Positions 3,820 through 24,961 of a stretch of DNA of 25,011 bases are shown here, in pieces. The position numbers and the translations under genes were made by a program. The DNA is from a virus: IMG/VR virus record IMGVR_UViG_3300009703_000097, positions 1-25,011 of that record. One strand, 5' to 3'. Numbering within the stretch: the first letter of the stretch is position 1; every line of letters begins with the position of its first letter. Below the pieces are notes generated by a model. It ran no database searches. It saw only the letters and a list, made by a program, of their open reading frames with translations, and had not been told where the DNA came from.

Positions 3820-6800
3820 ATGGGATTGATGGAATCATTGTTAGGATTAGAGGGTGTACAGGCAACAGGCGGTGGAGTTGCTTACGACCCAAGAGAAGAT
3901 GAGATGGAAGTGCGCTTTACAGCAGAAGGCACACCATACAACGCAAGACCCGATACACCACTTCACCCCGGACATACTAAAGCAAACCAACCTATGTTCA
4001 ATCTGCCTGTGGTAGAACAACCAACAGAGCCTTCATTACTCAATTATGGTGATAACTACTATTCAGATATACCATTTGTACCTCAAAATGTAGCGCCAAC
4101 AAACAATGTGACGCAAACTCTCGACAAAAACATAAACCCTATGGATTTATATAATCGTCAGGGCAGAGCAGATTACATACCTCAAGATACATACAATCCA
4201 AACACAGTATTTGGAGACCCAAGCCTAGAGTCTTTACCTGACCCAACAAGAGATGCTTATGCTGAACAAGATTACTATGCTGAACAAGATAGACAAGCAA
4301 AGATTGAAGCACAGTATCAGGCATTACTAAAAGCACAAGGTATTCAAGAAGATAGACGTGCTGAGTGGGATATGAACAGAGCAGACAGACAGTTCAATAC
4401 CCTAGACAAGCAATATGAAGACGACAACGCACTGAGAGTATTAGAACAATTACGACTGAAAGAAGAGAAGCAGAGATTAGAGCAACAACGCCAATATGAG
4501 CAACAACAAGAATTATTAAAGGCAGAAACCTTAGAGAATCGTGCTAATTGGGATATGCGTAGAGCAGATGACCAATTTAAGAATTTAGATACACAATACG
4601 ACATTAACAATCAGATAAACACAGACGACTTCGGTAACGAACTGTTAAATGCTAATGAACACGGTCAGACTAGATACGACATTAACGCAATCAAGCAGAA
4701 CTCATTAGACAACCTAATGATGCAAGATAAGAAGCCTACAATGAAGCAAACAGTCACAGAGCCAACTAAAGTAGACTCAGGTCTTTGGGAAGGAGCAAAG
4801 GATTTATACACGGATTTTACTAAGCCCGATAACCGTACTAAGTTACAAAAGTGGAAAGATTCAGAAGAAACCATACAAGGTGTTAAAGACAGCATTACAG
4901 GATTATTTGGCTTTGATGAAGATACTACACAAACAATAGATTCCGACTACTATAAGAATATTTTTACTAACGGTCCATCAATGTCTGATAGGTACGCCAA
5001 GGGTGTTGATTTAATCGGCAAAGGTATAGAGTATTCATTAGACGAGTTTGCAGATTCCCCTATAGGACAGATGGGTCAGCACGCTTTCGCACCACCAGGT
5101 ATTTATAAAAATTCATATAACACAAAAGATGATGGAACGCCTGACATGGTTATTCCTGATACAGGCATGACAGAGGGAATCCTACAAGGCTTCTATACAG
5201 AGATTCCGCAAGAGACATCTAGGCTAATAGCACATGGATTGAACCTAGGCGCACATCAACTAGGCAAGGAAGATATTGTAGACGCTGAATCTTGGGCTAA
5301 AACTATTCCAAATGTTTTTCCTGAAGAAAAATATCCTGAATTATGGGAAGATGGAGCATTTAATTTCGGTCGTGTAGGAACTCAATGGCTTACAGGTTAT
5401 GGCGTAGTCAAGAAGTTGATGACTAATGTCCTTAAAGACAGTGGCAAAAAGAAGTTTGCAAAAGAAGTAATAGCATCGGGTGGCGGTGGTGGCGCACTAG
5501 ATTTATCAGAAGGAAACTTGTCAACATTTGTCAATAGTACCGAATACAAAAACGCCTTGACAGAGTTCTTAGATTCTAAGATAGATGACCCTACAGCAGA
5601 AGAGTTCTTTGCTAACAAACTTAAAGCAATAGCAGAAGAAATGGGTCTTACCATTACATTGGGTGGGGCATTCTTTGCAGGTCTTAAAACAATTAAATCA
5701 TCACCCGATATTGCAAACTCTGTTAAAGACTTCCTAGACCCTAAAACTTGGGGCGCTCAGATTGAAGGGGCTACTGATAAAGCACTAGAATTAGCATCAG
5801 GCATCAAGAGTGGTGGTCGTAAAGAGATATTTAGTGGTGCAAAGGGAGCAGAAAGAGTTGGGAAGACTGATTTGATGAACAAAGCAGAGTCTTTGGAGAA
5901 ATCAGGTGCTAGTAAAGAGGACATTTGGAAAGAGACAGGATTTATTCGAGGACAAGAAGGTAATTTGAAGTTTGAGATAGACGATTCTCAGATGGAAATT
6001 AAGGACATTAGTCACCTAGATAAAGGTCCTAACACTATGGTACGTCTTAGTGAGATAGTTGACCATCCTAAACTATTTGAGGTCTATCCCGAGTTAAAGA
6101 ACATGGAGTTTTATCCGTTTGACAGTAGGATGGATGATGATGTTGGTGGTTATTTCACTCCAACCGAAAAAGGCGTTGGAATCATCAACATGAACCCAAA
6201 AACTTTAAACAAAGATGTTATTTGGAAGAAAATAGATGGTGAGTGGAAAAGAGTACCTGCAACTAAAGAAGAACTAGAAGGCTCTTACAAGAGACACGCT
6301 ACCTATAGAGCGTTTGTTAACCATGAATTAGACCATGCTGTAGCAAATATTGAGGGGCATGCTCAAGGAAGTTCACCTATAGTCGAGGCAGGTTATGTAG
6401 GTAGAGAAATAGATGCGTCAGGCAGTAGTATAAATAGCACCTTGATAGAAATGAGGCAGGCTAGGACAAAGGCTAGTAATGATTTCAACGATTTAACCGA
6501 TATTAAAAGAAGATTACAAAACAGGTTTGAATTTGTTTCAGATGAAGAGTTGGCTAAGTTTGGAATTAAAAGAGAGACGGCATTGTTAGGCGTTGATAAC
6601 AAATTAGACGACCTAAACAAAAAACTTAAAATGCTTGATAGGAATATTCAAGAAGGCGAAGTCTATCTCAATCGTGCAGGTTCTGCAAATTACAGAAAAG
6701 TAGCAGGCGAAAATTCCGCTTTTGAATCTCAAAACAGAATTGATATGACAGACGCAGAGCGCAGAGCAAATATGCCTGTGTGGAATAATGTAGCAGACGA

Positions 6801-9800
6801 AGACGCTATAATTAGAACACAATCGGTCATTTCTCAAGGTAACTTACCTTGGAAAATGTCAACTAAGGGCGATGGTGACTTCTACATTCAGAGAGTTGGT
6901 CCTAACGCAGGTAAGGTATCTAAGACAAGGCAAGGTCCAAGTGATATAGCATTCTCTACAGACCAAAGCGTATTACTGCCTGACTACGCCTACTACGCTG
7001 TGATGAATCTTGAGAAGCAATTACAAGCAAGAGCGCACGGTACAGCACAACAATCAATCAATAAGAAAGATATTGATGCTGTATTGACTGACTTCTTTCA
7101 GAATATGAAATCAGAGAGCAAAGTAACAGATGGTGTACTAGGACAGGTAGGTAAAAAAATAATTAAAGACTCTGACATAGAAAGAACAGACGTTGGTCTG
7201 TCTATCAGAGGCAAGAAAGACGGTCGCCAATATAGTATGACTGCTAACATCACAGAACATGGGCTACAGATTAAAAATATAAATGTTGACCATAAAATAC
7301 AAGGAAAGGGTGTTGGCACAGACATATACAAGGAAGCATTTAATGATGCAAAGTCACGTGGCTTAGATTTATCATCTGATTTCACCGTATCTGAAGACGC
7401 TTTAGGCTTGTACAAGAAACTTGAAAAGGAGGGTTATGATGTATGGTTTAATCCTAACGTAGAGATAAACTCAAAAGGCGTAACTCAATCATTAGACAGC
7501 AAACCTGTGGTTGTTGTGTCTACTAAAGTAGACAAAGACACTAGAATAGCACTTAATGAACAAAAAGCAGAGATTAAGGCTAAGGCTAAAGCGCAACAAC
7601 AAGAACAGTTAGACGCTAAAACTAAAGCAAAGGTGGATGAATTAGGATTCTACTCTAAAGCAGAACAAGCGTTATTAGACCTAAAACAAGAGAAGAACTC
7701 GCCTGACCATATACTTTCATACCTTAGGAAACAAGGGGTGACTCATGATGAGTTAAACGACACAGGGCTACTTGGGTTAATTATGGGTAATAAGATAGAA
7801 GGACAGCAAGTAACAAGAACAGGCTTACTTTCTCATATCAAATCGAATAAGACAAAACTTGATGAAACACAGTATCTTGGCGACAGAATTTATGATGATG
7901 CAGGTGACAGTGAATTAGATGACCCTGATTGGTATCGGGGAGCGGACGGTGGTAATGTGTCAGTTGTTGATGATACAGACTATATAAACAGCCGTGCAGA
8001 TGACATAAAATACGAATTAAACTCAGGTGATACTTTTGAGATGGAAAGGTTGTTTAATTATCTACATAGGTCTGACCCTGTGAAATACCCTAAGACCATT
8101 GATATGCAAATTGATGATTTAGACTTCGAACTGTCTGACATACGGTATCTTCAAACTCACGACCAATCGAATTATGTTGAAAATGTTAATCGCTTTTTTA
8201 ACAAACATCCTTCACACAGGGCTAATTTAGAGGACGGCTCGCACGTTGCTAAAGAAGAGTATCTGAAAAACCTTTATAAGTCTAATGATGAGAAAATAAT
8301 AGCCTTAAAGAACAAGAGAACTACAACAGATGGTTACACAGACGATTGGGCAGGGCAGATAGGCAAAAAGATAGACGATAATGAATTAGAAGCCTTAGAT
8401 TTCGATATTGATGATTATACCTACTCTGTTGCAGAGGCAGATTACCTAGACGACCCTTTTTATGAGTGGAACACTGAAAGCGGTTACACGGCTACAGGAA
8501 ATGAAAGCATTGGAATTACGATTAAAGACCCTAATGGTGATTTTATTAATAATGGCGAGCCTGTTTATAGTAGGAATGAGGCTAATATTCAGATTGGACA
8601 GCACGCTGATGATTGGGGTTATCAGACACAGGGTGAAGGAGGAACTAAATACTCTGACTACACCCAACCGGGTCTTGATGTCGAAACTTACAGAGAGATT
8701 CCTATTACATCTAAGCCTTTACATGGTGGTGATTACTGGGGTGGTCACTTCGATGAAGACAATGTAGTAGGTCATTTGCGTTTGTCTGACAAAACTGACG
8801 CAGACGGCAAGTGGGTATTGTTTATTGAAGAGTTACAGTCTGATTTGCATCAACAAGGTCGTAAGGGTGATTATGCAAGCAAAGCGCTTGATGATGCTGT
8901 TATTAAAGCCACAGACGAGGAAAAAGGCGCACAAGAAGTGTATATGACACTGAAGCGTAAATATGAAAAAGACCACCCTCTAACAGGCAAGATTGATGAG
9001 ACACTTAAAAATTATAAGACGTTAGATGAAATAAGTGACCCAACCGATGCAATGCTAAAAGAGAAATCTCGCCTTACTGATTTAATATATGAGTTGGACG
9101 TAGATAGAGATATTGACCTATTAAAAAACAAAGACTTTGCAAGTGCAAAGGTAGCACGAGACAAGGCTAAAGCGGAACTTAGAAAGTTAGTAAATAGACA
9201 AGCAAACGCTGTACCTGATTTTCCTCTAAAGAACGACAAATGGTTGGAGATGGCATTTAAACGTGCTATTAAGATTGCATCAGACGAAGGTTACGATAGA
9301 GTTGTGTGGACTAACTCACAACAGCAAGTAAATCTCTACTCTGACAGATACAGAGAGTTGTACGAGAACACGTATGACAATAAACTTCCGGGTTTTGCTA
9401 AGAGGCTAGCAAATAAGCATGGCTCACAGACAGGTACTGTCGAAGTAAATGATGTTGTCAATAATTACATCGACATCAATCCTAAACTTAAAGACGCTAT
9501 TAAAGACGGTCAACCAATGTATATAGCCCCTGTTATACCCGCAGGTGGTCTACTAGGTGGTGAAGAAACCCAAGCAGAAGAAGAGACTGAGAAAGACGGC
9601 ATCTTAAACAACGTGAAGTCTTGGAAGCCTAATAACAAACTAACCGACTTCGTTAAGATGATGGAAAACGCACCACTTGCAGTAGGCAAAGCAAAGGTTG
9701 AGGCGTATGACGATGTAGGGCATCAAGCAAAGGGTTTTGGCACTAAGGCAGGACTACTTGCTCAAGATACACCTGAAGAAGCAACTAAGGCTTTGATAAC

Positions 9801-10086
9801 TAAGTTAATTGATGCAAACAAGGCAGTTGACAGATTAGTCAAAATAGACTTAAATGAAGACCAAAGGAATGCTTTAGTATCATTAGTCTATAACGTAGGT
9901 GCTACAGGTTTTGGTAAATCTAATGCCCTAAAGGCGTTAAATAATGGTAATATAAAGACATTCTTGACAGAAGCGTTCGACCCTAAAAAAGGTTTTGTTA
10001 AATCAGAAGGTAAGATTAGCAAAGGCTTAGTGAATAGAAGAGCGAGAGAAAAGCAGATTTTCACAAAGGGGAACTATGGCAATTAA
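3820..10086 (+). CDS. Giant polyvalent virion-type protein: HExxH, GNAT-like and GH24-like domains (2088 aa)
   Basis: A 2088-residue multidomain protein of the phage 'polyvalent' kind, thought to be packaged and injected to act in the host and during entry. Seen in order: disordered N-terminus; Gln/Glu-rich coiled coil (about 140-265) with a 61-residue-offset duplication; Gly/Ala segment with a TEFLDSKIDDPTAEEFF motif (about 560-640); a metallopeptidase-like segment (about 680-1000) with HELDH at 835-839, preceded by IWKETGFIRG and followed by MTDAERRANMP, as in large polyvalent-protein-associated domains; a GNAT-like fold with QGKGVG at 1161-1166; a GFYSKAEQAL domain (1276-1355); a VLFIEELQSD segment (1666-1675) and EGYDRVVWT (about 1823-1831); and a GH24 lysozyme-like end (about 1940-2083). 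AAGGGG precedes ATG 3820. There is no signal peptide. Domain names rest on recalled family patterns; activity is unproven. Confidence 0.88.
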   Translation: MGLMESLLGLEGVQATGGGVAYDPREDEMEVRFTAEGTPYNARPDTPLHPGHTKANQPMFNLPVVEQPTEPSLLNYGDNYYSDIPFVPQNVAPTNNVTQTLDKNINPMDLYNRQGRADYIPQDTYNPNTVFGDPSLESLPDPTRDAYAEQDYYAEQDRQAKIEAQYQALLKAQGIQEDRRAEWDMNRADRQFNTLDKQYEDDNALRVLEQLRLKEEKQRLEQQRQYEQQQELLKAETLENRANWDMRRADDQFKNLDTQYDINNQINTDDFGNELLNANEHGQTRYDINAIKQNSLDNLMMQDKKPTMKQTVTEPTKVDSGLWEGAKDLYTDFTKPDNRTKLQKWKDSEETIQGVKDSITGLFGFDEDTTQTIDSDYYKNIFTNGPSMSDRYAKGVDLIGKGIEYSLDEFADSPIGQMGQHAFAPPGIYKNSYNTKDDGTPDMVIPDTGMTEGILQGFYTEIPQETSRLIAHGLNLGAHQLGKEDIVDAESWAKTIPNVFPEEKYPELWEDGAFNFGRVGTQWLTGYGVVKKLMTNVLKDSGKKKFAKEVIASGGGGGALDLSEGNLSTFVNSTEYKNALTEFLDSKIDDPTAEEFFANKLKAIAEEMGLTITLGGAFFAGLKTIKSSPDIANSVKDFLDPKTWGAQIEGATDKALELASGIKSGGRKEIFSGAKGAERVGKTDLMNKAESLEKSGASKEDIWKETGFIRGQEGNLKFEIDDSQMEIKDISHLDKGPNTMVRLSEIVDHPKLFEVYPELKNMEFYPFDSRMDDDVGGYFTPTEKGVGIINMNPKTLNKDVIWKKIDGEWKRVPATKEELEGSYKRHATYRAFVNHELDHAVANIEGHAQGSSPIVEAGYVGREIDASGSSINSTLIEMRQARTKASNDFNDLTDIKRRLQNRFEFVSDEELAKFGIKRETALLGVDNKLDDLNKKLKMLDRNIQEGEVYLNRAGSANYRKVAGENSAFESQNRIDMTDAERRANMPVWNNVADEDAIIRTQSVISQGNLPWKMSTKGDGDFYIQRVGPNAGKVSKTRQGPSDIAFSTDQSVLLPDYAYYAVMNLEKQLQARAHGTAQQSINKKDIDAVLTDFFQNMKSESKVTDGVLGQVGKKIIKDSDIERTDVGLSIRGKKDGRQYSMTANITEHGLQIKNINVDHKIQGKGVGTDIYKEAFNDAKSRGLDLSSDFTVSEDALGLYKKLEKEGYDVWFNPNVEINSKGVTQSLDSKPVVVVSTKVDKDTRIALNEQKAEIKAKAKAQQQEQLDAKTKAKVDELGFYSKAEQALLDLKQEKNSPDHILSYLRKQGVTHDELNDTGLLGLIMGNKIEGQQVTRTGLLSHIKSNKTKLDETQYLGDRIYDDAGDSELDDPDWYRGADGGNVSVVDDTDYINSRADDIKYELNSGDTFEMERLFNYLHRSDPVKYPKTIDMQIDDLDFELSDIRYLQTHDQSNYVENVNRFFNKHPSHRANLEDGSHVAKEEYLKNLYKSNDEKIIALKNKRTTTDGYTDDWAGQIGKKIDDNELEALDFDIDDYTYSVAEADYLDDPFYEWNTESGYTATGNESIGITIKDPNGDFINNGEPVYSRNEANIQIGQHADDWGYQTQGEGGTKYSDYTQPGLDVETYREIPITSKPLHGGDYWGGHFDEDNVVGHLRLSDKTDADGKWVLFIEELQSDLHQQGRKGDYASKALDDAVIKATDEEKGAQEVYMTLKRKYEKDHPLTGKIDETLKNYKTLDEISDPTDAMLKEKSRLTDLIYELDVDRDIDLLKNKDFASAKVARDKAKAELRKLVNRQANAVPDFPLKNDKWLEMAFKRAIKIASDEGYDRVVWTNSQQQVNLYSDRYRELYENTYDNKLPGFAKRLANKHGSQTGTVEVNDVVNNYIDINPKLKDAIKDGQPMYIAPVIPAGGLLGGEETQAEEETEKDGILNNVKSWKPNNKLTDFVKMMENAPLAVGKAKVEAYDDVGHQAKGFGTKAGLLAQDTPEEATKALITKLIDANKAVDRLVKIDLNEDQRNALVSLVYNVGATGFGKSNALKALNNGNIKTFLTEAFDPKKGFVKSEGKISKGLVNRRAREKQIFTKGNYGN
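4351..4611 (+). repeat. Duplicated coiled-coil unit inside the giant protein
   Basis: Two copies of a 26-residue unit, residues 178-203 (bases 4351-4428) and 239-264 (bases 4534-4611), are offset by exactly 61 residues. Both contain the pattern RAxWDMxRADxQFxxLDxQY. They flank a Glu/Gln/Arg-rich helix. The match is stronger in protein than in DNA, so the duplication is old or kept by selection. Confidence 0.85.
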
Positions 10087-10705
10087 TACATTCGCAACGC
10101 TTAAAACCGCAATAGCAGACTTTCTAAATAGGGATGATTTAACATCGGCTATTGAGAACTTTATTGCATTAGCAGAAGCACAGATTAACAGAGACATCCG
10201 ACATTGGAAGATGGAGAAGCGTGCTAGTGGTCAACAAAGTGCTAATGATGAATATTCACAGATTCCTTCTGATTGGATGGAGACTATTAGATTCCACGTC
10301 ACAGACAACGGAACATCACCACTTGATTTAATCTCAAGAGCATCAATGGCAGACAAACGTGCCTCTAATGAAGATGCTGTAGGAACACCAACACATTACA
10401 CTCACGCAGACGGACAGTTTCAGTTCTATCCAACACCATCTGCTACAGTGAACACAGAATTGCTTTACTACGCTAAGACAGACGCTCTTAGTTCAAGTAA
10501 TGCTAATAATTGGCTTTTACTAGAAGCGCCTGACGTGTACCTTTATGGTGCGCTATTACATTCAGCACCGTATCTAGGGGAAGACGAGAGAGACGCAGTA
10601 TGGGCGCAGATGTATTCTGCTTCTGTTGCTCGATTAAACGAAACGTCTGAGAATGCTAGGTTTAGTGGCTCAGGCTTAAAACTTAAAATACGTGGGCAAG
10701 GTTAG
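10076..10705 (+). CDS. Head-tail adaptor (SU10-like/gp4-like)
   Basis: A 209-residue protein of the phage adaptor family that forms a ring under the portal and links it to the tail nozzle. Diagnostic parts are the opening TFATLKTAIADFLNRDD, the helix IENFIALAEAQINRDIRH (about residues 23-40), a QIPSDWMETIRF strand (about 61-72), and the C-terminal helix DVYLYGALLHSAPYLGEDER (about 151-170). These occur in this order in adaptors of SU10-like and many uncultured podoviruses. The start overlaps the end of the giant gene by 11 bases, with AAGGGG just upstream. Its location before the propeller-like tail gene fits. Length is normal for the family. Confidence 0.85.
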   Translation: MAINTFATLKTAIADFLNRDDLTSAIENFIALAEAQINRDIRHWKMEKRASGQQSANDEYSQIPSDWMETIRFHVTDNGTSPLDLISRASMADKRASNEDAVGTPTHYTHADGQFQFYPTPSATVNTELLYYAKTDALSSSNANNWLLLEAPDVYLYGALLHSAPYLGEDERDAVWAQMYSASVARLNETSENARFSGSGLKLKIRGQG

Positions 10706-10726: not shown

Positions 10727-11113
10727 ATGTCATTCACAAACTTCCTCGAAACGGAAATTTTGGACCATGTATTCGCAGGTTCGGCTTACACAGCACCTAC
10801 GACTAAATACTTGGCTTTATACACAGCAGCACCGGGTGAGACAGGTGGCGGTACAGAGGTATCTACTACAGGTACGGCTTATGCTCGTCAATCAGTAGCA
10901 TTCAGCACAACAGGTAACACTACATCAAATACCGCAGCAGTTGAATATCCAACAGCAACAGCATCATTTGGTACAGTAACTCACGTAGGTGTATTTGACG
11001 CGGCTACAGCAGGTAACTTAATGGCTTACGCTACTTTATCTTCGTCTAAGACGATTGATACAGGTGACGTATTCCGTGTGCCAACAGGCGACCTAGATAT
11101 TACGCTAGACTAG
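10727..11113 (+). CDS. Small beta-rich virion protein (unassigned structural role)
   Basis: A 128-residue protein with a pattern common in podoviruses: an N-terminal helix (ETEILDHVFAG), YLALYTAAPGETGGGTEV, YARQSVAFSTTG, a Ser/Thr-rich strand region ending in THVGVFDAATAGNLMAYA, and the closing GDVFRVPTGDLDITLD. The family is recognised in many phage genomes, always among neck/tail genes, but its place in the virion is not firmly known; some annotate it as a tail or head-fibre component. AGGAG lies upstream in a 21-base gap. No cysteine is present and the composition suggests an extracellular beta sandwich. Confidence 0.78.
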   Translation: MSFTNFLETEILDHVFAGSAYTAPTTKYLALYTAAPGETGGGTEVSTTGTAYARQSVAFSTTGNTTSNTAAVEYPTATASFGTVTHVGVFDAATAGNLMAYATLSSSKTIDTGDVFRVPTGDLDITLD

Positions 11114-11128
11114 AATCAGGAGTAACCT

Positions 11129-12082
11129 GTGGGTACTTTTGTTTATGGTAATAGTTATTATGGTCTAAGGTCTTTTGACCAAACGACAGGCGCTGTAGAA
11201 GACGCTTCTGCCACAGTAACAGCAACTTCATCTATTGCAGGTGTTGATTGGATTGTTACTATGGGAAGTGGTCCTATTAGCGTTTCAACTTCTTCAAGTT
11301 CATCTTGTTCAGGTGAGGTAGTTATCATCGAAGAGACCGATAAGTTTTCTTATGGCTCAGGACTATATGGACAAAACGAATATACCCAAGGTGATTTACA
11401 AACTGTAGTAACAGCAACATCTTCTGCTTCAGCGTCATGTATTAAGATACAGACAGCATCTGCTACTTGTAGCGCTGTATCAACAGTTAGTGCAAATGCT
11501 AGAAGAGTGCCTGAAGGCTCTGCTTTAGTAAACGGAACATCTACTACTTCAGTAAACAGTACGGCTAACGGAGCAAGAATTAGAGAGTCAAGTGCTACAT
11601 CAAGCACAACAGCATCTAATTCTATAAGCGCTACTAGAGTAAGAGAAGGGTATGCTAACCCATCTGCTTCTGCAACAACAAGTGCAAGTAGTGTATTTGT
11701 AGTAAGTGGAAGTGCTACGGTTAATGCTTCTTGTACGACCGCAACGATATGTAATAGAGTAAGATTTGGCTCGGGTGTTGCGACATCTAATGCTAGTATT
11801 ACTGTCTTAGGGTTTGCTACAAGAGGTGGTATTGCATCTCTCAGTGGAACTTCAACAGCATCTTCAGACTCTGAAAAGATATTCCAAGGTAGTGCCACAT
11901 CATTACCTTCAACTACAATTACAGCAACTTGTAATAGAGTTCAACATTCAGGCGCAACAGTGAGTTCAACATCAGGAACTCTTACGATTGGTAGAGAGAA
12001 GTGGGAAGTTGTTTCACCTACGGGTGCTACATGGTCTACAATAGCAGAAACATCAACGACTTGGACGGATATAGCGGCATGA
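11129..12082 (+). CDS. Ser/Thr/Ala-rich repeat protein, likely virion surface or tail-associated
   Basis: A 317-residue protein with extreme composition (Ser, Thr, Ala, Val) made mostly of 20-residue repeats (residues about 91-274). The N-terminus carries two copies of a Tyr/Gly motif (FVYGNSYYG and FSYGSGLYG), and the C-terminus a Trp-rich tail ending TWTDIAA, a kind seen at the end of other phage proteins. The start is GTG at 11129, supported by CAGGAG 7-12 bases upstream; no closer ATG fits. Cysteines occur at similar places in several repeats (such as TATCNRV and TATICNRV). The stop overlaps the next start as ATGA. Position between adaptor and propeller protein suggests a structural component. 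I do not recognise a named family, and a beta-solenoid-like fold is only a guess. Confidence 0.78.
   Translation: MGTFVYGNSYYGLRSFDQTTGAVEDASATVTATSSIAGVDWIVTMGSGPISVSTSSSSSCSGEVVIIEETDKFSYGSGLYGQNEYTQGDLQTVVTATSSASASCIKIQTASATCSAVSTVSANARRVPEGSALVNGTSTTSVNSTANGARIRESSATSSTTASNSISATRVREGYANPSASATTSASSVFVVSGSATVNASCTTATICNRVRFGSGVATSNASITVLGFATRGGIASLSGTSTASSDSEKIFQGSATSLPSTTITATCNRVQHSGATVSSTSGTLTIGREKWEVVSPTGATWSTIAETSTTWTDIAA
11399..11950 (+). repeat. Tandem 60-base (20-residue) coding repeats
   Basis: Nine consecutive units cover residues 91-274 of the repeat protein. Eight are 20 residues; one (131-154) is 24. The loose consensus is SAT followed by about eleven Ser/Thr/Ala residues, then N-R-V-R-x-G. 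The DNA copies are diverged, so they are selected protein repeats and not recent amplification. Units 155-174 and 195-214 are the clearest. Confidence 0.8.
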
Positions 12083-13557
12083 GTTTAATACCATTACAAT
12101 TACCACCGGGCATTCACCGAAACGGTACAGATTTTGAATCATCTAATAGATGGCGTGATGCTAGTCTAGTACGTTGGCATGATGGCTCAATGCGTCCTGT
12201 GGGCGGTTGGACTACACGTAAGGCTTCGGCATTTGCTTCTGCTCCAAGAGCAATGTTATCTTGGGTTGATAACTCTAGTGGTTCTAATTTAGTGGGCGCT
12301 ACATACGACAAGTTGTACTATGTTAATCCTTCAAGCACGGTGTCCGACATTACACCGACAGGCTTAACATCAGGAACATTAAACGCTACACAGAACTTAG
12401 GCTATGGTGGTGGATTCTATAACGCAGGTAACTATGGCAGAGCGCCAACAGGCTCAGGTGTATATGACGAAGCAACTACATGGGCATTAGATACATGGGG
12501 TGAATACCTACTTGCTTGTTCATCAGAAGATGGCAAGATTTACGAGTGGCAGTTAAACACAGCGGTATTACCGACAGCATTAACCAACGCACCTGTATCA
12601 AACGCATCAATGCTTGTTACAGAAGAAAGATTTGTATTCGCATTAGGCGCAGGTGGCAATCCTAGAAAGGTTCAGTGGTGTGATAGAGAAAATAACACCA
12701 CATGGACACCATCAGCAACAAATGAGGCAGGTGACTTTGAATTACAAACACAAGGTCAGATTATGTGTGGCACAAGAATGAGAGGTCGAACTCTTATCAT
12801 TACAGACCAAGACGCTCACATTGCTACTTACTCAGGTCCACCGTTTGTATATGGTTTTGAGAGAGTTGGTACAGCATGTGGTATTGCATCACGTAAAGCA
12901 TTAGTTGCAGTAGATGAAGGCGCATTTTGGATGGGGCATAAAGGCTTCTATACATTCGATGGCTCAGTAGCAACAGAAATGAAGTGTGATGTATTAGACT
13001 ATGTGTTTGATGACATCAACAGAAATCAGATTAGTAAAGTGGTAGCAGTACACAACTCACAACATGGCGAAGTATGGTTCTTCTACCCTTCAGGTTCATC
13101 AACTGAGAATGACAGATATGTTTCACTAGACTATAAAGAGGGTCATTGGTCTACAGGAACACTAGACAGAACAGCGTGTGTCGATAGAGGTGTATTCTCT
13201 AACCCTATTTGGGCAGATGCTAGTGGTAACTTGTACAATCAAGAGACAGGCTTCACACATGGCTCAGTTAAGCCTTACGCAGAGTCAGGTCCTATTAGTT
13301 TAGGTAATGGCGATACAGTAATGAGAGTAACAAACCTTATTCCTGATGAAGAAACTCAGGGCGAAGTAAAAGTAACCTTTAAATCAAGATTCTATCCAAA
13401 TGCGTCAGAAACGACACACGGACCATACACATTAGTAAATCCTACAGATGTTCGTTTCACAGGCAGACAGATTAGACTTAAAGTTCAAGGCGTAGGTAAT
13501 GATAATTGGCGCTCAGGTGTAATGCGTATTGAAGCAAAAGCAGGTGGTAGAAGATGA
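12079..13557 (+). CDS. Beta-propeller-like tail protein (probable nozzle/tail tubular protein B analogue)
   Basis: A 492-residue protein starting MSLIPLQLPPGIHRNGTDF, the standard opening of a common podovirus tail family. It has repeated beta-strand units with aromatic turns: ATYDKLYYVNP, WGEYLLACSSEDGKIYEW, RTLIITDQDAHIATYSGPP, EGAFWMGHKGFYTFDG and GEVWFFYPSG, typical of propeller blades, and ends with VMRIEAKAGGRR. T7 gp12 and relatives use such a propeller in the nozzle through which DNA leaves, so this is the best role. ATG 12079 overlaps the preceding stop as ATGA; the open frame continues upstream to 12001 but those residues do not resemble the family. Its place downstream of the adaptor supports the assignment. 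Confidence 0.75.
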   Translation: MSLIPLQLPPGIHRNGTDFESSNRWRDASLVRWHDGSMRPVGGWTTRKASAFASAPRAMLSWVDNSSGSNLVGATYDKLYYVNPSSTVSDITPTGLTSGTLNATQNLGYGGGFYNAGNYGRAPTGSGVYDEATTWALDTWGEYLLACSSEDGKIYEWQLNTAVLPTALTNAPVSNASMLVTEERFVFALGAGGNPRKVQWCDRENNTTWTPSATNEAGDFELQTQGQIMCGTRMRGRTLIITDQDAHIATYSGPPFVYGFERVGTACGIASRKALVAVDEGAFWMGHKGFYTFDGSVATEMKCDVLDYVFDDINRNQISKVVAVHNSQHGEVWFFYPSGSSTENDRYVSLDYKEGHWSTGTLDRTACVDRGVFSNPIWADASGNLYNQETGFTHGSVKPYAESGPISLGNGDTVMRVTNLIPDEETQGEVKVTFKSRFYPNASETTHGPYTLVNPTDVRFTGRQIRLKVQGVGNDNWRSGVMRIEAKAGGRR

Positions 13558-24406: not shown

Positions 24407-24961
24407 ATGGCAGATACAACTACTACAACTTATAGTCTGACTAAACCTGAAGTAGGTGCGTCAGCCGACACATGGGGAACTAAGTTAAACACTAACTTAG
24501 ATACGATTGATGATTTATTAGATGGCACTACAGCCATTGCACCTAACGTAACAGCAGGTTCATGGAAAGTAGGTGGAGTGGCAGTAACCTCTACCGCAGC
24601 AGAATTAAACGCACTAGATGGTATCACCTCAACAGTTACAGAACTCAACTTGCTAGATGGCGTGACAGCCACCACAGCAGAACTTAACTACGTTGATGGT
24701 GTTACCTCAGCAATCCAAACACAGTTAGACACCAAGTTGGCATCAGGTGGCACATTAGCAACTGCAACAATTACTACTTTGACGAGTACAACAACCACAG
24801 CGACAACTGCTAACATCACAACGGTTGATTTGGGTAATTGGACAGTAACAGAATCAGCAGGTGTGCTTTACTTTGCTACATCAGGTACTAACAAAATGAA
24901 GTTAGATGCTTCAGGTAATTTAACAGTAACAGGTAATGTAACAGGTTACGGTACAGTTTAA
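24407..24961 (+). CDS. Tail-fibre-like protein with ELNxLDGVT repeats
   Basis: A 184-residue protein with the common phage-fibre N-terminus (SLTKPEVGASADTWGTKLNT and then NLDTIDDLLDG), three 13-residue ELNxLDGVT repeats (residues 66-104), a Thr-rich stretch and a closing strand region MKLDASGNLTVTGNVTGYG. Such proteins form trimeric spikes or fibres that meet the host surface. At 184 residues it is short and stops at a point where many fibres continue into receptor-binding or chaperone domains. ATATAGGATAATAAA precedes the ATG. It may be the virion-attached part of a fibre whose distal part lies in the following gene. Confidence 0.82.
   Translation: MADTTTTTYSLTKPEVGASADTWGTKLNTNLDTIDDLLDGTTAIAPNVTAGSWKVGGVAVTSTAAELNALDGITSTVTELNLLDGVTATTAELNYVDGVTSAIQTQLDTKLASGGTLATATITTLTSTTTTATTANITTVDLGNWTVTESAGVLYFATSGTNKMKLDASGNLTVTGNVTGYGTV
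24602..24718 (+). repeat. Three tandem 39-base coding repeats in the fibre gene
   Basis: Three in-frame units of 13 residues beginning ELNALDGIT, ELNLLDGVT and ELNYVDGVT (residues 66-78, 79-91, 92-104). This repeat is widely seen in phage tail fibres and likely forms part of the trimeric shaft. The units are similar but not identical in DNA. Confidence 0.9.

Follow-up and report, generated by a model that had tools for sequence, protein, structure and literature searches.

A family of 20-residue repeat proteins encoded beside gp80-type fibre genes of short-tailed phages: a probable tail fibre or adhesin rod

The window analysed here, a virus record of 25,011 bases in which a PHROG search found portal and major capsid genes, encodes a repeat protein that belongs to a family so far without a name. 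Probably (roughly 0.6) it serves a short-tailed phage as a tail fibre or adhesin rod, situated beside gp80. This reading draws on the position of its gene, its homology to two other gp80-linked families, the modular way in which its length changes, its faster evolution, and a domain of tail-fibre type inserted in some of its relatives.

Architecture of the repeat protein

The gene lies at 11129–12082 on the plus strand, as do all its parts given below, and according to the list of open reading frames and its translation it encodes 317 residues from a GTG start: about twelve 20-residue units in total, accompanied by a pair of Tyr-Gly motifs and an end rich in Trp. The N-terminal Tyr-Gly motif (FVYGNSYYGLRSF, 11138–11176) is the conserved start of the family, with Y6 invariant and G12 conserved to at least 90% in the window-family alignment (A1, see below); by eye, phiM5 gp18 and the ctjtQ328 protein also have a start of this type. 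Two 20-residue units follow (11204–11323, by unit count), and then a second Tyr-Gly module (FSYGSGLYGQNEYTQGD, 11345–11395), located with A1, which hhalign pairs with the N-terminus of family A5 and of which longer relatives have an additional copy. This module stands ahead of the main array of nine units (11399–11950, from self-similarity and unit count). The last unit is degenerate (11951–12010, from A1 and unit count) and continues into GREKWEV, and the C-terminal tail recognised in A1 (GREKW...TW...TW, 11990–12079) contains Trp decapeptides whose copy number differs among relatives.

The original prediction was of a protein of nine almost exact 20-residue repeats, one of them extended to 24 residues, and the periodicity is borne out. 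The stretch 11399–11950 is a single open frame of 184 residues, divisible into eight units of 20 and one of 24, and its self-similarity is greatest at lag 20 (z 5.9 relative to 500 shuffles that keep the composition); for the whole protein the shuffle test gives z 4.4 at lag 20 and z 5.4 at lag 60. The count of nine is correct for that stretch but too low for the gene, in which two units precede it and a degenerate one follows. The composition, said to be unlike the rest of the window, is indeed its most extreme (S+T 0.36, S+T+A 0.48), but S+T+A reaches 0.42 in both the gp80-like gene at 10727–11113 and a fibre-like gene at 24407–24961. Tandem Repeats Finder reports no DNA array within the gene, the repeats being visible in the protein only, which indicates that they are old and diverged. 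The earlier remark that no named family fits also holds: the protein matches no Pfam family at E 1 (including PF23140, the gp80 family), no PHROG (including phrog_19041) and no PDB sequence. An open frame of 182 residues runs antisense to the gene (11350–11898, minus strand) and has most likely arisen as a side effect of the gene's Ser/Thr/Ala codons.

Position in the tail gene block

The gene order, all on the plus strand, is adaptor, gp80-type gene, repeat gene, nozzle, which puts the repeat gene in the tail block, adjoining tail genes. The adaptor (10076–10705) belongs to the SU10 adaptor family (Pfam PF24175, E 1.9e-36; synteny), the GP4 fibre I or gp80-type protein (10727–11113) directly upstream matches PF23140 (E 2.8e-43) and PDB 8jou_a (E 5.7e-14), and the nozzle-like tail protein (12082–13557) directly downstream matches phrog_3287 (E 5.6e-87), nozzle gp16 of PDB 8zkk (E 1.7e-6) and 9nwi_Y (E 2.7e-10). 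Of 80 related IMG/VR loci, 76 have the gp80-type gene directly upstream and 76 have the nozzle gene downstream, the loci without one or other neighbour being contigs that end at that point; the repeat protein thus comes after a gp80-type gene wherever the contig extends far enough. The upstream gene is of the same family as fibre I gp80 of the GP4 tail complex (PF23140; PDB 8jou), unlike the repeat protein itself with its want of Pfam and PDB sequence matches. In GP4, chain g of PDB 8JOU, which may or may not be gp80, is described in parts of PMC13243795 as forming a fibril by which an adhesin is joined to the collar of the tail nozzle; the match obtained here is to chain a (8jou_a).

The window's portal has its nearest named relatives in Octadecabacter Antarctic DB virus 2, at 47%, and in Sinorhizobium phage phiM5, at 37%. 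As to the host, a search of genome contigs found no protein related to the repeat protein, and the portal led only to a single metagenome-assembled contig, from Phycisphaerales, too weak a clue for naming a host.

Relatives and homologous families

A search of IMG/VR returned 179 relatives of the repeat protein, and tblastn against 50,697 phage records gave no match at E 10. The gp80-type gene is better conserved and was used as a guide to named phages, yielding 24 regions, in 20 of which the gene after gp80, or one nearby, was translated. In 17 of these 20 genes a period of 20 or 22 residues ranks within the six best lags: ct2t2046, ctjtQ328, MEP401, MEP402, C72C1, DC1, JC1, BcepMigl, CRP-5, CRP-4, phiM5 and DB2 gp11 in a first batch, and Itty13, POI1126, OH, BcepIL02 and PBC5 in a second. 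The periodicity is weak (z < 3.6) in BcepMigl, CRP-5, CRP-4, phiM5 and Itty13, and DB2 gp11 is the third gene after gp80 rather than the adjacent one. The other three have no such period (ctXG6705, where an HNH protein follows gp80; ctvy9321; and Venkman, judged by eye). Outside the translated 20 are the next genes in Sporosarcina phage Lietuvens, a Desulfofustis phage and Mycobacterium phage Quesadilla, and Atu_ph08, viewed by eye only.

Alignment A1 comprises the window protein and 28 of 40 distinct relatives (29 sequences). It omits ten with a truncated sequence or a different start (L009, L030–L034, L037, L038, L042, L047) and, for no special reason, the full-length L074 and L080; L025, one of the 80 loci, is cut by its contig and has no open frame, so that protein counts for the window family are out of 79. 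With two of the named-phage proteins as seeds, 79 and 80 IMG/VR loci were gathered, from which alignments A4 (42 of 79 loci) and A5 (41 of 80; 4 of 45 distinct ones were dropped for odd length) were built; these are the families of ct2t2046 and ctjtQ328. By profile comparison both of these freshwater families are homologous to the window family. The hhalign score is 126 for A1 with A4 (best of 20 column-shuffled controls, 22) and 122 for A1 with A5 (best of 20, 19), and the A1–A5 alignment spans the Tyr-Gly module through the Trp tail. A gp80-type gene lies upstream wherever there is room for it (78 of 78 loci for A4, 77 of 77 for A5), and a nozzle gene lies downstream in 74 of 74 A4 loci. Weak matches to phrog_31951, a family of unknown function, come from ten of the 41 A5 members (best E 7.3e-5).

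The seed proteins resemble the window protein in several respects. The ct2t2046 'serine-rich adhesin' (UOF77096.1, MW202462.1) and the ctjtQ328 hypothetical protein (MW202879.1) both come after gp80, have a 20-residue period and end in Trp decapeptides. They differ in that their repeats are far more regular, in the lack of a Tyr-Gly start in ct2t2046, and in the genes that follow, a nozzle gene being downstream of the ctjtQ328 family in only 1 of 64 loci.

Other phages offer likeness of position. In Burkholderia Lessievirus the gene after gp80 (phrog_19041) has a similar length and a 20-residue period (z 6.8 in DC1 gp54, 7.9 in BcepIL02 gp56), but its Ser/Thr content is 0.08–0.12, as opposed to 0.36 in the window protein, and the Lessievirus set (A3) shows no profile homology to A1, with an hhalign probability of about 1 that is not above shuffled controls. 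We treat it therefore as a positional counterpart only. Since some members of A3 are strongly 20-periodic, its failure to match also indicates that periodicity alone does not generate the scores of A1 with A4 and A5. Five of six A3 members match phrog_19041, a virion structural protein family; neither the Lessievirus profile nor the counterparts found a convincing solved chain in the PDB, and no GP4 counterpart could be reached by that route. In the Methylophilales phages, MEP401 gp59 ('tail protein') and MEP402 gp62 come next after gp80 and have strong 20/40-residue periodicity (z 9–12); their N- and C-termini differ by eye from those of the window protein, and they are likened to it by position and periodicity. 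Octadecabacter Antarctic DB virus 2 gp11 (L082:6714–8240) has 22-residue repeats and a C-terminus of Trp decapeptides, and its annotation as 'ribonuclease E' looks wrong. The genes after gp80 in Roseobacter phages CRP-4 and CRP-5 (L084 and L156) have an 8-residue period, by eye of the GD-R-TE type, together with a weaker 20-residue one. In the papers that our literature search found, most subscription journals lying outside its reach, neither the repeat family nor the insert domain discussed below is described.

Length changes and evolution

There are several features of the family's variation. First, in A4 length varies in whole 20-residue steps, to within a residue or two: the 75 full-length proteins have 196 (5 proteins), 216 (1), 276 (37) or 294–296 residues (32). 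The Trp-Trp spacings in their last 75 residues are likewise regular, 365 of 365 being 10. Second, the window family falls largely into length classes of 305–307 (25 of 79 loci), 370–374 (13), 410–422 (25) and 428–439 residues (13), and the two examples of 428–431 residues that were examined, L044 and L065, each contain additional units and one more Tyr-Gly module, the third. The original prediction was to fall if a disordered model went together with a repeat number not conserved in relatives; the latter is not what is seen, length being constant in the closest relatives (the 305–307 class) and otherwise changing by modules. Third, in 33 of 35 distinct loci the repeat gene is the least identical of the four genes of the block (median identity 0.58, as compared with 0.72–0.79), and its dN/dS, 0.18–0.28 against four relatives, is the highest of the four in 4 of 4 pairs. 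Judged by these ratios the gene is nevertheless under purifying selection. Parts of PMC3909814 place the tail fibres of marine phages and their repeat stretches among the most variable phage genes, which agrees with the fast change of this gene if it encodes a tail fibre.

Fourth, conservation is unevenly spread. A1 has 64 invariant columns; the Tyr-Gly start and the GREKW C-terminus are conserved and the repeats between them are variable. In A4 and A5 conservation is 20-periodic, the observed value being reached by 0 of 1000 permutations, although lags 18 and 22 likewise exceed all permutations, as alternating residues would also bring about. Conservation in A1 is not clearly 20-periodic (108 of 1000 permutations).

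A domain inserted between repeat units

In 25 of 79 close relatives an extra domain of about 104–115 residues stands between two repeat units, after the position of window residue 238; the window protein is without it, and the corresponding point (11842–11843, from A1 and domain mapping) is empty. A Cys-His-Met motif is present in all 25 window-family loci of 410–422 residues, and an example (L046:2513–2848) is cupredoxin-like, with the invariant His and Cys-x2-His-x2-Met. A scan for the domain gave 80 loci, 51 with a window-type protein alongside and 29 without, and the Cys-x2-His-x2-Met motif is found in all 80; in the alignment of 23 of these loci (A6), H50, C97, H100 and M103 are invariant (23 of 23). 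We take this set, a His followed by Cys-x2-His-x2-Met, to be the ligand pattern and spacing of type-1 copper proteins, and the insert accordingly looks, from its residues, like a domain with a copper-site-like His/Cys/His/Met set. Matches to curated profiles are mixed. Pfam Copper-bind (PF00127) falls below the cut-off, with 2 of 23 members and a best E of 0.026 at a loose threshold; CBM_4_9 does better (3 of 23, best E 0.0002), plastocyanin TIGR02656 matches one of 23 members at E 0.076, and no PDB sequence matches convincingly.

The PHROG matches of the insert are to tail-fibre, baseplate and virion families, the best being to a family of unknown function (E 5.5e-18) and to a tail fibre (E 9.2e-14), and tblastn finds it in 272 phage records, mostly of cyanophages with some pelagiphages and Methylophilales phages. 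We offer as a speculation, unlikely to be right in full, that gp80-type podophages may have a modular tail rod of 20-residue coils that lengthens by whole units and accepts a domain between coils, and that in about a third of the close relatives this domain could be a type-1 copper protein, giving the virion a copper centre where it touches its host; the domain would likewise occur in tail proteins of cyanophages, pelagiphages and Methylophilales phages. Metal sites are already described for phage tail fibres, as the His-x-His iron sites reported in parts of PMC11705849; the copper-site-like insert, if real, would be a metal centre of another kind on a phage tail.

Predicted fold

Structure prediction gives little for the window protein and a lead for a relative. 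AlphaFold2 run on the window protein with 29 sequences returned a pLDDT of 31, which is uninformative and which we would not read as disorder. For a 226-residue A5 member (41 sequences) it gave a pLDDT of 56.8 (other models, 38–47) and pTM of 0.50, with strands of about 16 residues recurring every 20. The model superposes on adhesin beta-solenoids (4opw_A, Z 16.4, 2.6 Å over 169 residues; 6n2b_A, Z 16.2, 2.7 Å over 161). The likeness to such adhesins (4opw, tapirin 6n2b and Candida Awp3b) is one of fold matches to this low-confidence model, at 8–14% sequence identity. Foldseek found no PDB match for it at E 0.001 and, among viral models, one at E <= 0.001, an uncharacterised uncultured-phage protein with a low TM-score; a fold of a family outside the lists of PDB matches may also apply. 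AlphaFold2 tends to invent beta-solenoids for repeats, according to parts of PMC11795689, and for that reason we take the A5 solenoid as a lead only. The solenoid proposed earlier thus gains weak support from a homologue and none from the window protein itself.

Another fibrous fold was considered and rejected. The triple beta-spiral of adenovirus-type shafts has a repeat of about 15 residues with a Gly/Pro turn, whereas the best lag of 11399–11950 is 20 and lag 15 is outside the 15 best.

A probable tail fibre or adhesin rod

We propose that the Tyr-Gly N-terminal part would anchor a rod to the collar of the tail, either on the gp80-type fibre I protein or beside it. The twelve or so units would then form a stiff, beta-structured rod, most likely with one beta-solenoid coil per unit, its length being set by the number of units, and the Trp decapeptide C-terminus would cap the rod or connect it to a partner. 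The rod surface would evolve fast and in some relatives would display the extra domain between two units; a fast-changing surface and an inserted domain would be natural in a part that touches the surface of the host. The repeats, the gene order, the homology to two other gp80-linked families, the whole-unit length steps, the faster evolution and the insert are observations; the place in the virion, the site of attachment, the solenoid fold and contact with the host are inferred. The fibrous virion element of the original prediction is supported by the position between gp80 and nozzle, by homologous families in the same place and by the tail-fibre-type insert, and the protein is probably part of the virion. 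Against the reading stand the low pLDDT of the window protein, the low confidence of the A5 model, the want of clearly 20-periodic conservation in A1 and the failure of the Lessievirus set to match. Particle proteomics also count against it: phiM5 gp18, the matching gene, carries no 'detected in phage particle proteome' note, which most of its neighbours have, and JC1 gp54, a positional counterpart, is absent from the mass-spectrometry protein list of Burkholderia phage JC1 in the parts of PMC9144972 consulted. The window protein has a Lys/Arg fraction of 0.05, and poor proteomic detection of proteins of its type could follow from having few of these residues.

The foremost alternative, to which we give a minor share of the probability, is that the protein is a plain shaft or spacer, standing between the gp80-type fibril and a distinct fibre that binds the receptor, and itself touches no receptor. 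A candidate for that fibre exists in the window, the fibre-like gene at 24407–24961 with an N-terminus like that of phiM5 gp19 by eye, and the whole-unit repeat number in A4 is ruler-like. However, the repeat gene evolves fastest in its block and has taken up a domain in 25 of 79 relatives, both of which look more like host-driven selection. Less probable again is a low-complexity and largely disordered tether, its Ser/Thr/Ala richness reflecting loose constraint. The pLDDT of the window protein would suit this, and the parts of PMC11795689 already mentioned put 20-residue repeats in the class for which AlphaFold2 can invent solenoids, but the phase-locked conservation of A4 and A5, the invariant columns of the 29 window-family sequences and the low dN/dS argue against it, and length changes by exact units point to a fold. 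A fibre of the capsid or head, or a tail plug, in place of a lateral tail fibre is quite improbable: PHROG files the gp80-type gene under head and packaging and labels the Lessievirus counterpart in the same way, whereas the genes immediately around the repeat gene encode an adaptor, gp80 fibre I and a nozzle, and tail-fibre and baseplate families have the insert domain too.

If the reading as a tail fibre or adhesin rod is correct, it would point to a second host-contact part in podophages of a large marine and freshwater group. Genes beside or near gp80 can in any case be recognised by their architecture (a Tyr-Gly start, 20-residue units and a Trp decapeptide end); at present they are annotated as hypothetical, as 'serine-rich adhesin' or even as 'ribonuclease E'.

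Cysteines

The window protein has six cysteines (60, 104, 114, 202, 208 and 268), five of them inside 11399–11950, in agreement with the earlier observation that cysteines recur in several units, and by our unit count C60, C104, C208 and C268 occupy the equivalent position in their respective units. In the 29 sequences of A1, C60 is conserved in 28 and C208 and C268 in all 29; another residue, mainly Ala, Ser, Thr, Gly or Val, takes the place of C114 and C202 in most relatives and of C104 in 15. As small residues, these substitutes would suit a tight core. The further proposal, of disulfide cross-links between units or metal binding through the cysteines, fares badly and is very improbable in spite of the three conserved residues in one common phase, given that the other three are so often replaced, that 11 of 41 A5-family proteins have no cysteine at all, and that C208 and C268, 60 residues or three units apart in equal phase, would lie about three coils from each other in a solenoid.

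Other genes of the window

The fibre-like gene at 24407–24961, close to the end of the record, is Thr-rich and has weak PHROG matches only; phiM5 gp19, which its start resembles, is annotated as a putative host-binding tail fibre. At the other end of the record, a DNA methyltransferase-like gene (2–727) is truncated by the record start and is followed by a small nuclease-like gene (696–1073), both recognised by eye. A protein of 2088 residues (3820–10086), with a phage lysozyme domain at its C-terminus besides LPD23 and GNAT acetyltransferase-like domains, is probably an ejected or polyvalent virion protein.
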